Assembly: GCA_013823245.1 (NCBI GenBank)
Contig: PNLU01000002.1
Span: forward strand, 18,199 to 82,198
DNA from: Alcanivorax sp.
Lineage (GTDB): Bacteria; Pseudomonadota; Gammaproteobacteria; Pseudomonadales; Alcanivoracaceae
DNA length: 64,000 nucleotides
Direction: 5' to 3'
Under the pieces are notes generated by a model. It was not told the DNA's origin, did not search any database, and saw only the letters and a program-made list of their open reading frames with translations. Numbering within the stretch: the stretch's first letter is position 1; every line of letters starts with the position of its first letter. Below, in pieces: positions 41,377-47,725 of this stretch. The position numbers were made by a program, and so were the translations under genes.

Positions 41377-42120
41377 TTATTTCCGAATACGGCTCAGCAA
41401 GGTCCAGACGCCAGTCAAGGCCAACAAAGCCATCAGCATGGCTGCAACGTTGACCACCCAGCCCCCTGCACGACCGAACAAGCGACCGCTGTGCAGATCC
41501 AGCACCACCCGCTCGCGGCTTATACCGGGTAGCGGCGCGTGCTGCGCCAGTTGATCGCGCAGGCTGTCGGGCAATGGCACCGCGTCCACCCACTCGGCAC
41601 CCTGCCGTTGGTAGTCGTGCCACGCGCCGGAAAATTCATCGAATCGATAATGCCCAGAGCGAGTGGCGAGTATCAGTTGCCCTCGCTCATCCAGACCAAG
41701 GCGCCGACCGCCCCCGGGGGCGCCGCTGATGGCTTCGAGCAAGGAGGCATCATGACCCAGCAGTAACAGGCGCTCGCCGCAGACGGCGGCAATCAGCCCC
41801 TCGTCAGTCAATCCCTCATAAGGCACCGCTGCCACCAGCGAATCCGGGCAGCGAGTCAGGGCTTCGGTGTTGAACATCAACAGCCCACCTTGCCGGCTCA
41901 GCCACTGATTACCCACGTTGTATCCGGTCTCCGGCACATCCGGCGGCACGCCATACCAGCTTGACCAGAGCCGCCCTTGCACCGGCACATGCTGCCACCC
42001 GCGCCACTCGCTGACCGTAATCAGCACACCCGTGGTCACCAGAAACAGAATCGGTATCAACAACGCCAGGCCCAGCCACCGATGCCAACGTATCCAGCGG
42101 CCGCGCCGCGACACGGTCAT
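41377..42120 (-). CDS. PepSY-associated TM domain protein
   Basis: RWIRWHRWLGLALLIPILFLVTTGVLITVSEWRGW and C-terminal VVLDLHSGRLFGRAGGWVVNVAAMLMALLALTGVW. Confidence 0.82.
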   Translation of the reverse strand: MTVSRRGRWIRWHRWLGLALLIPILFLVTTGVLITVSEWRGWQHVPVQGRLWSSWYGVPPDVPETGYNVGNQWLSRQGGLLMFNTEALTRCPDSLVAAVPYEGLTDEGLIAAVCGERLLLLGHDASLLEAISGAPGGGRRLGLDERGQLILATRSGHYRFDEFSGAWHDYQRQGAEWVDAVPLPDSLRDQLAQHAPLPGISRERVVLDLHSGRLFGRAGGWVVNVAAMLMALLALTGVWTLLSRIRK

Positions 42121-42641
42121 CCGGATATCGCCTCGGCATGCAAACGCAGCACCAGCCGCGCCACACGCGTGACGGCATCCACCGACAGGGTTGCGCCCGT
42201 AATGTTGTCGATGGGCCGGTCCAGGCGATTGCCATTGGCCAGCACCGCACCCTCGAACTGGCGGGTGAAAAAGCGCTCATGCACTTCGCCGCCGCGCGGC
42301 TCACGGTAAACCAGAATGCGTACTTTCTCGATGCCTTCAGGCCCGACAACAAACCCCATAGTGATCGGGTACTCCTTGCCGATTTCTTCCATGATCCAGG
42401 CGGTCCGATCTCCAGCCCGCCAGTAGCGCTGGCGCGCCACACTGACGCGCCGCTCCATGATCTGTGCGGCCTCATCACGCAGCACGGCGTTCATCATGAT
42501 GAACTGCAATTGCGGGGTCTGTTCCGGGAACGCCAGCACCAGAAACTCATCCTGCGTCAGGTAACGGATATGAGTGCCGTGTGCGCTGGCCATCGGCGCC
42601 AGCATGCACAGCAACCACCCCACCACAACCGGTTTCCACAT
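42117..42641 (-). CDS. Secreted FMN-binding domain protein with covalent flavinylation-like motif
   Basis: Signal peptide-like N-terminus; VVGPEGIEKVRILVYREPRGGEV and DNITGATLS, matching the D-x-x-[ST]-G-A-T motif of NqrC/RnfG-type FMN-binding domains. Confidence 0.85.
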   Translation of the reverse strand: MWKPVVVGWLLCMLAPMASAHGTHIRYLTQDEFLVLAFPEQTPQLQFIMMNAVLRDEAAQIMERRVSVARQRYWRAGDRTAWIMEEIGKEYPITMGFVVGPEGIEKVRILVYREPRGGEVHERFFTRQFEGAVLANGNRLDRPIDNITGATLSVDAVTRVARLVLRLHAEAISG

Positions 42642-44296
42642 CAGTTCACCAGCCTTTCCTGATCCATCAGGGTACGAATCAGCCAGCGCTGGTAGGGCCC
42701 GACACGCTTCCCCTCCAGGCGGGCATGCGCTTCATGATGGAAAGGGTGATGCTCGACACGCGCGGGCAATACCCAGGACGCAAGCCGCGCACTGTTCCGG
42801 ATCCAGAAGTAGTTCATACGCTGCCAGGCGCCATAGTTCATCTCGTACTGATCACGCACTTCCGGCGGCAGATTGGCTGCGGTGGAAATCTTCTGTACCC
42901 ACATAGGAAAAATCAGCAATACGGATTGAGGCTTGAACAGATCGTCACGCAGCTGAACCGTCGCATCGGTCACCGTAAGCTGGGGACTCGCCCACATGGC
43001 TTCGTTGTAGGCGATAAATTCGTTCCAGTCCTGTGGCAGTGCATCCTCGGGAATGCCGAACAGCATCGCGAACAGTTTGGTTTCCTGATAGAACTGCTCT
43101 TTCTGCTCGTCCGTGAGCTTGCCCTTGAGCTGCTCATACATCATCGCCAGGGTTTCCCACAGGGTGGCGTGCACCCAGATCATGGCGTTGACTTCGTTGG
43201 CGCGATATTCGGTGCCGCGCTTGAAGGCGCCTGCGTCGTAGTCCATTTCGCCTTCGATCGCTTCGTGGATGGCGTGCACCTGATTGGCCGATCGCATCAC
43301 CTGCGGCATGCTGCCATAGGTCATGGTGAACACATGCTGGAACGTGCGCCGCGCGCGTCCCAGTGCATCCTCGCGCACTACCGAATGCTCGTCGATCCCC
43401 TGCGTGATCCAGGGATGGGCGTTCTGCAACAACAATGCCCGTCCGGCACCAAAGCCGCCCGGCGCCATCGGTCCCTGAAGTTTCCACATCATCGAGTCAG
43501 GACCGAACAGGCCAACACGGCCGTCCGGGATGCGGCCATGCACCCGATACAACTGCTCGCAGAACGCATCCCGGTCCACCCAGCGCGCCATCGGTGCAGA
43601 GCCATCTTCCGGCACCAGTTCGCGCACCCGGTCACGACCCGCGTCACGTCTTTGCGTGGTGCCGTTTACCGCCACTGCCCGTTCACCCTCCGGACGAAAA
43701 TCCCGGGGGCATGGCCCGGAAAGATAGCCGGTCTCCGCGCGCACCATCTCCAGATCAAGCCGTGTGCCGTTGCGTGTCAGGCGCATACGCTCTGGCAACC
43801 GGTAGTCGTGCACGCGCATATGATCGCGATAATGGATCTCCCAGTCATCGTCAGTCACGCGTGCAAGCTGCCCGGCCCTGGCATATTCCATGTTCGCTTC
43901 CGGTGTCGCCGGCAGACCGCGCAGCCAGAACGCAAAATGTTGCAGTGGCAAGCTATCGCGAAGCTGGCGTGCCAATGCGGCGGCCTGATGATCCCGCGCG
44001 CGCAGGTCTGGCGCGTCGTCAAACAGGTCTGCGGCGCTGAGCACCACATCCGGCTCACCGACCGGGTCTTTCAGCATCAGCGCCAGGCTGTAACCGCCCT
44101 CTACCTGGGTGTAACGAAACCAGGCGCGCTCGCGCCCCTGGTCGCCACGCCAGTCAAGACGGCCTTCGATCTGCCATTCCTCAAGATGCTCGGCATCGGC
44201 CGCTTCAAAGTCCATGACGCGGGTCGAACTGCACCCTGCCAACATGCCCAGCAGAGCCATCAGACAGAGCACCTTTTTCCCGATTATTATTTTCAT
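42641..44296 (-). CDS. LolB-like lipoprotein domain fused to DUF2236/MpaB-type oxygenase
   Basis: Lipobox LAGC-SS; aa ~41-187 WQIEGRLDWRG...YSLALMLKDPVGEPDVVL...LPLQHFAFWLRGLP...GQLARVTDDDWEIHYRDHMRVHDYRLPERMRLTRNGTRLDLEMVR is LolB-like. C-terminal GRALLLQNAHPWITQGIDEHSVVREDALGRARRTFQHVFTMTYGS...YRANEVNAMIWVHATLWETLAMMYE is DUF2236-like. Single uninterrupted ORF. Confidence 0.85.
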   Translation of the reverse strand: MKIIIGKKVLCLMALLGMLAGCSSTRVMDFEAADAEHLEEWQIEGRLDWRGDQGRERAWFRYTQVEGGYSLALMLKDPVGEPDVVLSAADLFDDAPDLRARDHQAAALARQLRDSLPLQHFAFWLRGLPATPEANMEYARAGQLARVTDDDWEIHYRDHMRVHDYRLPERMRLTRNGTRLDLEMVRAETGYLSGPCPRDFRPEGERAVAVNGTTQRRDAGRDRVRELVPEDGSAPMARWVDRDAFCEQLYRVHGRIPDGRVGLFGPDSMMWKLQGPMAPGGFGAGRALLLQNAHPWITQGIDEHSVVREDALGRARRTFQHVFTMTYGSMPQVMRSANQVHAIHEAIEGEMDYDAGAFKRGTEYRANEVNAMIWVHATLWETLAMMYEQLKGKLTDEQKEQFYQETKLFAMLFGIPEDALPQDWNEFIAYNEAMWASPQLTVTDATVQLRDDLFKPQSVLLIFPMWVQKISTAANLPPEVRDQYEMNYGAWQRMNYFWIRNSARLASWVLPARVEHHPFHHEAHARLEGKRVGPYQRWLIRTLMDQERLVN

Positions 44297-46972: not shown

Positions 46973-47089
46973 AGCTCCGAAAATGAGATAAATATCAAAA
47001 TATGTCTCATTGTTTCGGCGCGCAAGCCGCTCATACAGATTTTCAGGGGGTGTTTACGGCAGAAAGTACCAGTGCCGGGGCACTTGCGG

Positions 47090-47725
47090 TCAGGCAGCCG
47101 GTGCCAGCAGGGGGCGCAGGAAGGTCTCGGCAAAGCGGCGCACGCTGGCTTCATCGGCCGGTGAGATGACGCCGTCCGGGCTCAGCACCAGTGACTGCAC
47201 CAGGCGCAACAGCAGTTCGGCGATCTCTTCCGCCGGGCGATCACTCAGGCCGCCCGTCTGCTGCCCCTTGCTGATCTGCGTGGCCAGATACAGGCGGCTG
47301 AAGGTCACCAGTTGCGGCAGGCGCACGGTGAGATAAGGCAGGATATCCTCGGGCTCGCTGGCCAGCAGACGCGCCAGCAGCGGGTGCCGCCAGGCGCCGA
47401 TCACGGCCAGCACGAAGGCCTCCAGCATGGCATCCAGAGGTGTGGTCATGGCACTGAGGCGAGATTCGATCAAGGCCAGCTGCTGCTGGCATTCACGCAG
47501 GATCACCGCCTGCACCAGCTGATCCTTGTCACCAAAGCGACGGTACACGGTAGCCCGCCCCATACCGGCTCTTTGCGCGACGTCCTCCATGGTGGTGCGG
47601 CGCAGACCGAATTCCACGAACAGCGCGAGCGCAGCATCCAGAATACGCGTCTGGCGGGCATCCTGCGGCGGCGTGTCGCCAGCGCTCAGGGAGAAGGCGG
47701 TTTGTGCATCCTGTTTGCGGGCCAT
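47090..47725 (-). CDS. TetR/AcrR family transcriptional regulator
   Basis: ILDAALALFVEFGLRRTTMEDVAQRAGMGRATVYRRFGDKDQLVQAVI. Confidence 0.93.
   Translation of the reverse strand: MARKQDAQTAFSLSAGDTPPQDARQTRILDAALALFVEFGLRRTTMEDVAQRAGMGRATVYRRFGDKDQLVQAVILRECQQQLALIESRLSAMTTPLDAMLEAFVLAVIGAWRHPLLARLLASEPEDILPYLTVRLPQLVTFSRLYLATQISKGQQTGGLSDRPAEEIAELLLRLVQSLVLSPDGVISPADEASVRRFAETFLRPLLAPAA

Follow-up and report, generated by a model that had tools for sequence, protein, structure and literature searches.

Background

C=C bonds are the targets of MpaB (mycophenolic acid) and of t-anethole oxygenase. The rubber oxygenases RoxB and Lcp cut such bonds in polyisoprene, and a 2018 review draws a strict division between them, with RoxA/B in Gram-negative and Lcp in Gram-positive bacteria (PMC6311187); a later paper cites an Lcp from the Gram-negative Solimonas (PMC11169899). 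In actinobacteria, TetR regulates lcp via palindromes (PMC7413915). Polyisoprenes, natural and synthetic, reach the sea along with other isoprenoid hydrocarbons, and the opening of their C=C bonds by marine hydrocarbon degraders is poorly known. Here we describe a locus of Alcanivorax sp. (assembly GCA_013823245.1; 3.19 Mb, 196 contigs, 92% complete), located in a stretch of 64,000 nucleotides (nt) of contig PNLU01000002.1, hereafter the window. It encodes a TetR-family regulator, two oxygenases of family PF09995 (DUF2236/MPAB_Lcp_cat), one of them (the fusion) joined to a LolB domain and the other named MpaB1, an acyl-coenzyme A (CoA) ligase, a secreted flavin mononucleotide (FMN)-binding protein and a PepSY_TM membrane protein. 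On balance, we favour the reading that this TetR-controlled operon serves the oxidative cleavage of C=C bonds in unsaturated hydrocarbons, most likely isoprenoids.

The locus resembles actinobacterial Lcp and its TetR-type regulator LcpR in the PF09995 domain, the fold, the equivalents of R164 and H198, a Thr or Ser at the T168 position, an adjacent TetR gene and a promoter palindrome. Unlike Lcp, the oxygenases here are a LolB-fused, predicted outer-membrane lipoprotein and a predicted cytoplasmic protein, both without a Tat signal and with K167 replaced; their genes are linked to ligase and flavin/PepSY genes and, in some species, share a regulon with RoxB. RoxB of Gram-negative bacteria is of the same oxidative C=C cleavage class and an equivalog is found in the cluster or with the same operator in several Alcanivorax, but it is a c-type di-haem protein unrelated to MpaB and was undetected in the genome of the window. 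MpaB and t-anethole oxygenase share the PF09995 family or fold and the single domain of ~300 amino acids (aa) with MpaB1, although their identity to it is low, and we know of no flavin/PepSY relay for either. The N-terminal domain of the fusion has the PF03550 match, fold and lipobox of LolB and a hydrophobic residue at the L68 position, whereas it lies under the NCBIfam lolB equivalog cut-off, is joined to an oxygenase and coexists with a separate LolB. The PepSY-like flavinylated electron-transfer systems of Meheust et al. (2021) likewise have a secreted FMN_bind protein with a flavinylation motif adjoining PepSY_TM; the main text of that paper links them to DUF2271, DUF4198 and iron uptake and mentions neither DUF2236 nor LolB (PMC8238504).

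Results

The LolB-oxygenase fusion is a genuine protein. The search covered 57 genomes, the window's own included, and found it at full length in 13 of these, with 47-84% identity in the 12 (of 56) others, which excludes a frameshift or assembly artefact. A stand-alone LolB is encoded elsewhere in the genome of the window (C1:55125), and the fusion itself missed the cut-off of the NCBIfam lolB equivalog TIGR00548 (51.2 versus 59.6 bits). Residues 1-22 comprise a signal peptide with the lipobox LAGC(22)S (LAGC or LQGC in relatives), and the lipobox Cys of the fusion proteins is followed by Ser or Gly, without Asp at +2. In the Lol system the absence of Asp at +2 is consistent with outer-membrane sorting, and the sequence of the fusion is consistent with a predicted outer-membrane lipoprotein. 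V79 aligns with L68 of E. coli LolB and is an invariant Val in 13 orthologues.

The oxygenase domain of the fusion carries R314, T318 and H344, which are invariant in 35 aligned sequences, LolB-less homologues of other lineages included. They correspond to Lcp R164, T168 and H198, as mapped by motif and order and not by superposition, with the H198 spacing differing by four residues; in Lcp these three residues, H198 being the proximal haem ligand, are near-invariant and essential or nearly so (PMC6311187). With an AlphaFold model of the fusion (pLDDT 89.2, pTM 0.86), Foldseek retrieved LolB at E 1e-8, and the helical part gave Lcp (5o1l) at E 9e-3 and a probability of 1.00. The equivalent triad of MpaB1 is R71, S75 and H101 (numbered from GTG 46972), Thr being swapped for Ser, and its model (pLDDT 88.7) matched best t-anethole oxygenase (8s1j; TM-score 0.57, 13% identity) and then Lcp 5o1l. 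The E-values are weak for the Lcp and t-anethole oxygenase fold matches; the assignment is carried by the probabilities and the common Pfam family. The MpaB1 reading frame (46040-46972) begins with GTG, and the ATG at 46966, 8 nt past a GGAG, is the likelier start. Inspection revealed no signal sequence in MpaB1, which is thus predicted to be cytoplasmic, so that of the two envelope oxygenases proposed in a preliminary description of the locus the fusion stands and MpaB1 does not.

That description also named the six genes and their junctions, and both are borne out: all genes lie on the minus strand and Pfam backs each name (Table 1), with gathering scores of 23 bits for PF09995 and 23.7 bits for LolB. 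The five downstream genes are spaced by -4 to +17 nt, with a 1-nt gap, a 17-nt gap, a TGATG overlap and an ATGA overlap in succession. TetR is set ~120 nt apart from them, and because this stretch holds a 26-base-pair (bp) palindrome, the regulator is possibly outside the five-gene transcript. NCBIfam gave no specific identity for TetR or for the ligase, which remained under the cut-off of all 25 NCBIfam families listed (best 381.6 versus 766 bits) and is not assigned to the FadD type; its nearest solved relatives are 4-coumarate and fatty-acyl ligases.

Table 1. Genes, domains and sites of the locus (positions in the window).
Feature	Positions	Strand	Evidence or remark
TetR-family regulator, 211 aa	47090..47725	-	PF00440 TetR_N 3.8e-18; likely operon repressor
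Palindrome TGAGACATATTTTGATATTTATCTCA, proposed TetR operator	46984..47009	-	immediately 5' of MpaB1
MpaB1, DUF2236/MPAB_Lcp_cat oxygenase, ~308 aa	46040..46966	-	PF09995 4.6e-59, 200.7 bits
AMP-forming acyl-CoA ligase, 574 aa	44314..46038	-	AMP-binding 1.5e-88
LolB-MpaB fusion lipoprotein, 551 aa	42641..44296	-	signal peptide, lipobox, LolB barrel, linker, MpaB/Lcp-type oxygenase
LolB domain of fusion, residues 40-183	43748..44179	-	PF03550 2e-17, 64.1 bits
Oxygenase domain of fusion, residues 278-506	42779..43465	-	PF09995 4.5e-49, 168 bits
Secreted FMN-binding protein, 174 aa, signal peptide	42117..42641	-	FMN_bind PF04205 22.6 bits, cut-off 22
Flavinylation motif D145-N-I-T-G-A-T151	42189..42209	-	in the FMN-binding protein
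PepSY_TM membrane protein, 247 aa	41377..42120	-	PF03929 46.6 bits, cut-off 28.8; two predicted transmembrane helices

The order TetR-MpaB-ligase-fusion-FMN recurs collinearly in 14 gammaproteobacterial genomes, most of them of the Alcanivoracaceae, the family of Alcanivorax, as expected if the locus is more than a peculiarity of one strain. It is uninterrupted in the window and loci L038-L042, L044, L046, L048, L049, L059 and L070, and outside Alcanivoracaceae in L057 and L061; the order is kept across genera and, for the most part, in further genomes. TetR orthologues are 50-88% identical and stand near the cluster head in relatives, and the FMN gene lies directly 3' of the fusion gene in nearly every locus. 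Variants are an insertion of two genes between TetR and MpaB (L043), a ligase placed after FMN (L045, L062, L118), a cluster without the ligase (L069) and a decayed cluster (L047, genome G027), which has lost MpaB1, FMN and the operator and has a truncated ligase but kept TetR, the fusion and RoxB. In many loci of Alcanivorax sensu stricto (s.s.), a pair of acyl-CoA dehydrogenase genes lies directly 5' of TetR; their products most resemble PimC and PimD but score under the cut-offs for these. In L057 the run extends past PepSY into a porin of the FadL/TodX family (FilD/FadL-like).

The palindrome TGAGAC-N14-RTCTCA is found just 5' of MpaB1 in nearly all loci, in weaker form in L057 and L069, and would be bound by TetR. 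Allowing up to three mismatches, the genome of the window has two such sites, an exact one at the operon and one with 3 mismatches ~75-100 bp 5' of a gene for a third MpaB (MpaB3) on contig C23; the reversed control gave 0. In 16 further genomes we found 12 matches, all in operon-bearing genomes, and zero with the reversed pattern; the five genomes without a match comprise the decayed G027 and four that do not carry the operon. Eleven of the 12 matches precede MpaB1; the remaining one, in G035 (A. profundi), stands 188 bp ahead of a RoxB gene. Related sites (3-6 mismatches) accompany MpaB3 orthologues in 11 of 12 species, and in the distant locus L076 an MpaB3 orthologue (50% identity) lies inside a run of secreted MpaB, FMN, MpaB3 and TetR, which links MpaB3 to these genes independently and supports the regulon. 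The regulon is wider than six genes. On contig C23 (L103, ~1887-2975), a gene of group II intron type with reverse transcriptase and HNH domains stops ~170 bp ahead of the operator-like site of MpaB3.

The RoxA-like di-haem protein encoded by that A. profundi gene scored 1121.8 bits against the NCBIfam RoxB equivalog NF050034 (cut-off 900), and five RoxB proteins in all reached 1063-1170 bits. In G013, G027 and G058, RoxB, a lipoprotein judging by its N-terminus, is divergent from TetR, and in G061 it lies at the cluster edge; two of the RoxB genes of these four genomes were scored, at 1063-1072 bits. A weaker related palindrome separates TetR and RoxB in L119. RoxB was present in 7 of the 15 genomes with the fusion and in none of the 23 family genomes in which the fusion was sought and not found (hypergeometric 5e-4, uncorrected for kinship). 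The proteins contain two CxxCH motifs (CHACH, CASCH or CAGCH) spaced by ~201-205 residues and the MauG motif PY[FL]HNG, with Phe at RoxA positions 301 and 317 and, as in RoxB, Val at W302. The haem-motif spacing is 199 residues in RoxA (PMC6311187) and 235-245 in oleate enzymes, which also have F301Q (PMC4496055). As the linked RoxB resembles rubber oxygenases and not oleate dioxygenases, cleavage of isoprenoid-type hydrocarbons is favoured. A review table names RoxB in Alcanivorax strains, without the MpaB/LolB cluster context (PMC10731047).

The secreted FMN-binding protein had been proposed to be covalently flavinylated, and its DNITGAT motif, a signal peptide judged from sequence and an ApbE gene elsewhere in the genome (C22:13532-14377) support this. 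D145, I147, T148, G149, A150 and T151 are invariant across 17 sequences, and the operon FMN proteins share D-x-I-T-G-A-T-L, the ApbE signature being D-x-x-[ST]-G-A-[ST]. FMN_bind also comes after LolB-less MpaB genes in four distant loci (L074, L075, L076, L078), so that the pairing of MpaB with FMN does not depend on the LolB fusion. In PepSY, H13 and H210 are invariant in an alignment of 7 sequences and are candidate haem ligands, as known in PepSY-family proteins. The PepSY gene comes after FMN in each of the four genus-1 loci and also in L049, L057, L061 and L069. Of the six-gene set first outlined, five genes are conserved; PepSY as a core component was rejected, as most Alcanivorax s.s. 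clusters are without it. Several of these genomes have a related short PepSY gene elsewhere, next to one for a porin or TonB receptor and in some cases accompanied by a separate FMN protein. A separate conserved porin-FMN_bind-PepSY cluster adjoining glutaredoxin and peroxiredoxin genes occurs across the family (L093-L096, L115-L117) and may have given rise to the FMN-PepSY pair of the operon.

Discussion

The proposal of an envelope oxygenase with CoA activation acting on an isoprenoid-like substrate is strengthened by cross-genus conservation, the Lcp haem triad, the RoxB linkage and the flavinylation motif together with ApbE; substrate, chemistry and electron flow are what we infer. The LolB-like barrel of the lipoprotein would capture substrate reaching the outer membrane and hand it to the fusion's own Lcp/MpaB-type haem oxygenase. 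The flavinylated FMN protein, whose flavin site is seen as a conserved motif only, would be reduced via the PepSY haem protein of the inner membrane and either keep the oxygenase reduced or supply electrons. Aldehyde, ketone or acid fragments would then enter the cell, where cytoplasmic MpaB1, and MpaB3 encoded elsewhere, possibly shorten them further, and the ligase would turn acids into CoA thioesters for β-oxidation, in Alcanivorax s.s. via the two acyl-CoA dehydrogenases encoded next to TetR. Several species also encode, within this cluster or regulon, a RoxB rubber dioxygenase that is secreted or a lipoprotein.

Several observations weigh against cleavage of isoprenoid hydrocarbons by this operon. 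No RoxB was detected in the window's own genome, which is 92% complete, so the RoxB link for this strain rests on relatives, and RoxA-family matches above 70 bits were found in 9 of 46 family genomes, RoxB thus not being essential. Where Lcp has its distal haem ligand K167, most of the proteins here have Arg and some have Asn. Searches of PDB sequences with MpaB1, the fusion and a fusion profile retrieved no Lcp, which was found by Pfam family and fold only. PepSY is missing from all Alcanivorax s.s. clusters examined but one, and the FMN-PepSY pair is also found away from any MpaB in the family. Moreover, for purified RoxA substrate and O2 suffice (PMC6311187), which leaves a dedicated electron relay unexplained.

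The main rival holds that unsaturated fatty acids or fatty-acyl lipids, rather than isoprenoids, are oxidised at the envelope, in the making of oxylipins, in lipid turnover or in damage repair. The ligase and the PimC/PimD-like dehydrogenases suit acyl substrates, LolB-like barrels bind acyl chains, and where PepSY is missing a YdbH-type gene of intermembrane phospholipid transport follows FMN in some species (L041, L042, L044, L059). The RoxA superfamily moreover contains the oleate 10S-dioxygenase of P. aeruginosa (PMC4496055). Nevertheless, the linked RoxB proteins pass the equivalog cut-off for rubber dioxygenases, and their haem-motif spacing and the Phe residues at 301 and 317 match these and not the oleate enzymes; we consider a fatty-acyl substrate rather unlikely. 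A small alkenyl-aromatic or terpenoid compound, resembling anethole and cleaved for detoxification or growth with no relation to hydrocarbons, would agree with t-anethole oxygenase as the best structural match of MpaB1 and a 4-coumarate-CoA ligase as the nearest solved relative of the ligase. We consider this very unlikely, given the identity of only 13% and given that the LolB fusion at the outer membrane, the FadL-type porin and the RoxB partners point to very hydrophobic substrates.

The flavin branch of the operon could also be a generic periplasmic reductase, for ferric iron or another acceptor, that accompanies the operon but takes no part in the oxygenase reaction. PepSY/flavinylated systems are tied to iron reduction (PMC8238504), a related FMN-PepSY pair adjoins a Porin_O_P gene in genomes without the operon, and PepSY is dispensable from most Alcanivorax s.s. 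clusters. The nearly constant position of the FMN gene right after the fusion gene and its occurrence after LolB-less MpaB in the four distant loci argue otherwise, and we regard this explanation as unlikely.

Returning to isoprenoid cleavage, the protein families are already known; the literature searched held no description of a LolB fusion of this kind, of its coupling to flavin/PepSY proteins or of an operator common with RoxB, and searches on Alcanivorax with MpaB and on LolB with oxygenase returned nothing relevant. We raise, with more doubt than confidence, the possibility that this is an undescribed Gram-negative regulon for polyisoprenoid cleavage, in which an outer-membrane LolB-oxygenase fusion is fed electrons via flavinylated and PepSY proteins and works alongside RoxB. 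If so, it would be the first reductant-coupled Lcp/MpaB oxygenase and the first system to place rubber oxygenases of both the Lcp and the RoxB type under a single repressor. It would also give Alcanivorax a defined regulon for opening isoprenoid C=C bonds, make LolB a substrate-presenting module and a new way to hold an oxygenase at the outer membrane, and assign flavinylated electron relays a part in the chemistry of oxygenases.

Neighbouring genes and other observations

A molybdopterin oxidoreductase gene (47850-49982, plus strand), divergent from TetR, was rejected as a partner because in Alcanivorax s.s. it does not lie next to the operon and some genomes without the operon carry it; a homologue (55% identity) also lies near the operon in L057. 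On the other side, four consecutive predicted secreted proteins (35520-41375, plus strand) are encoded convergently with the operon; two have DUF6160/FilA-like matches, and three of the four genes are kept beside the operon in genus-1 relatives. A connection with the Fil putative pilus system is possible. A large lipoprotein with Big_5 domains and an OmpW-like protein are encoded in or beside the cluster in L043, L045, L049 and L119, in several loci between TetR and MpaB1, and with extra palindromes nearby they are possible further members of the regulon. Finally, four contigs titled Pedobacter sp. (L075, L076, L082, L084) carry MpaB/FMN genes of gammaproteobacterial type that resemble those of the Moraxellaceae contig L074, and their bin label may be wrong or mixed.

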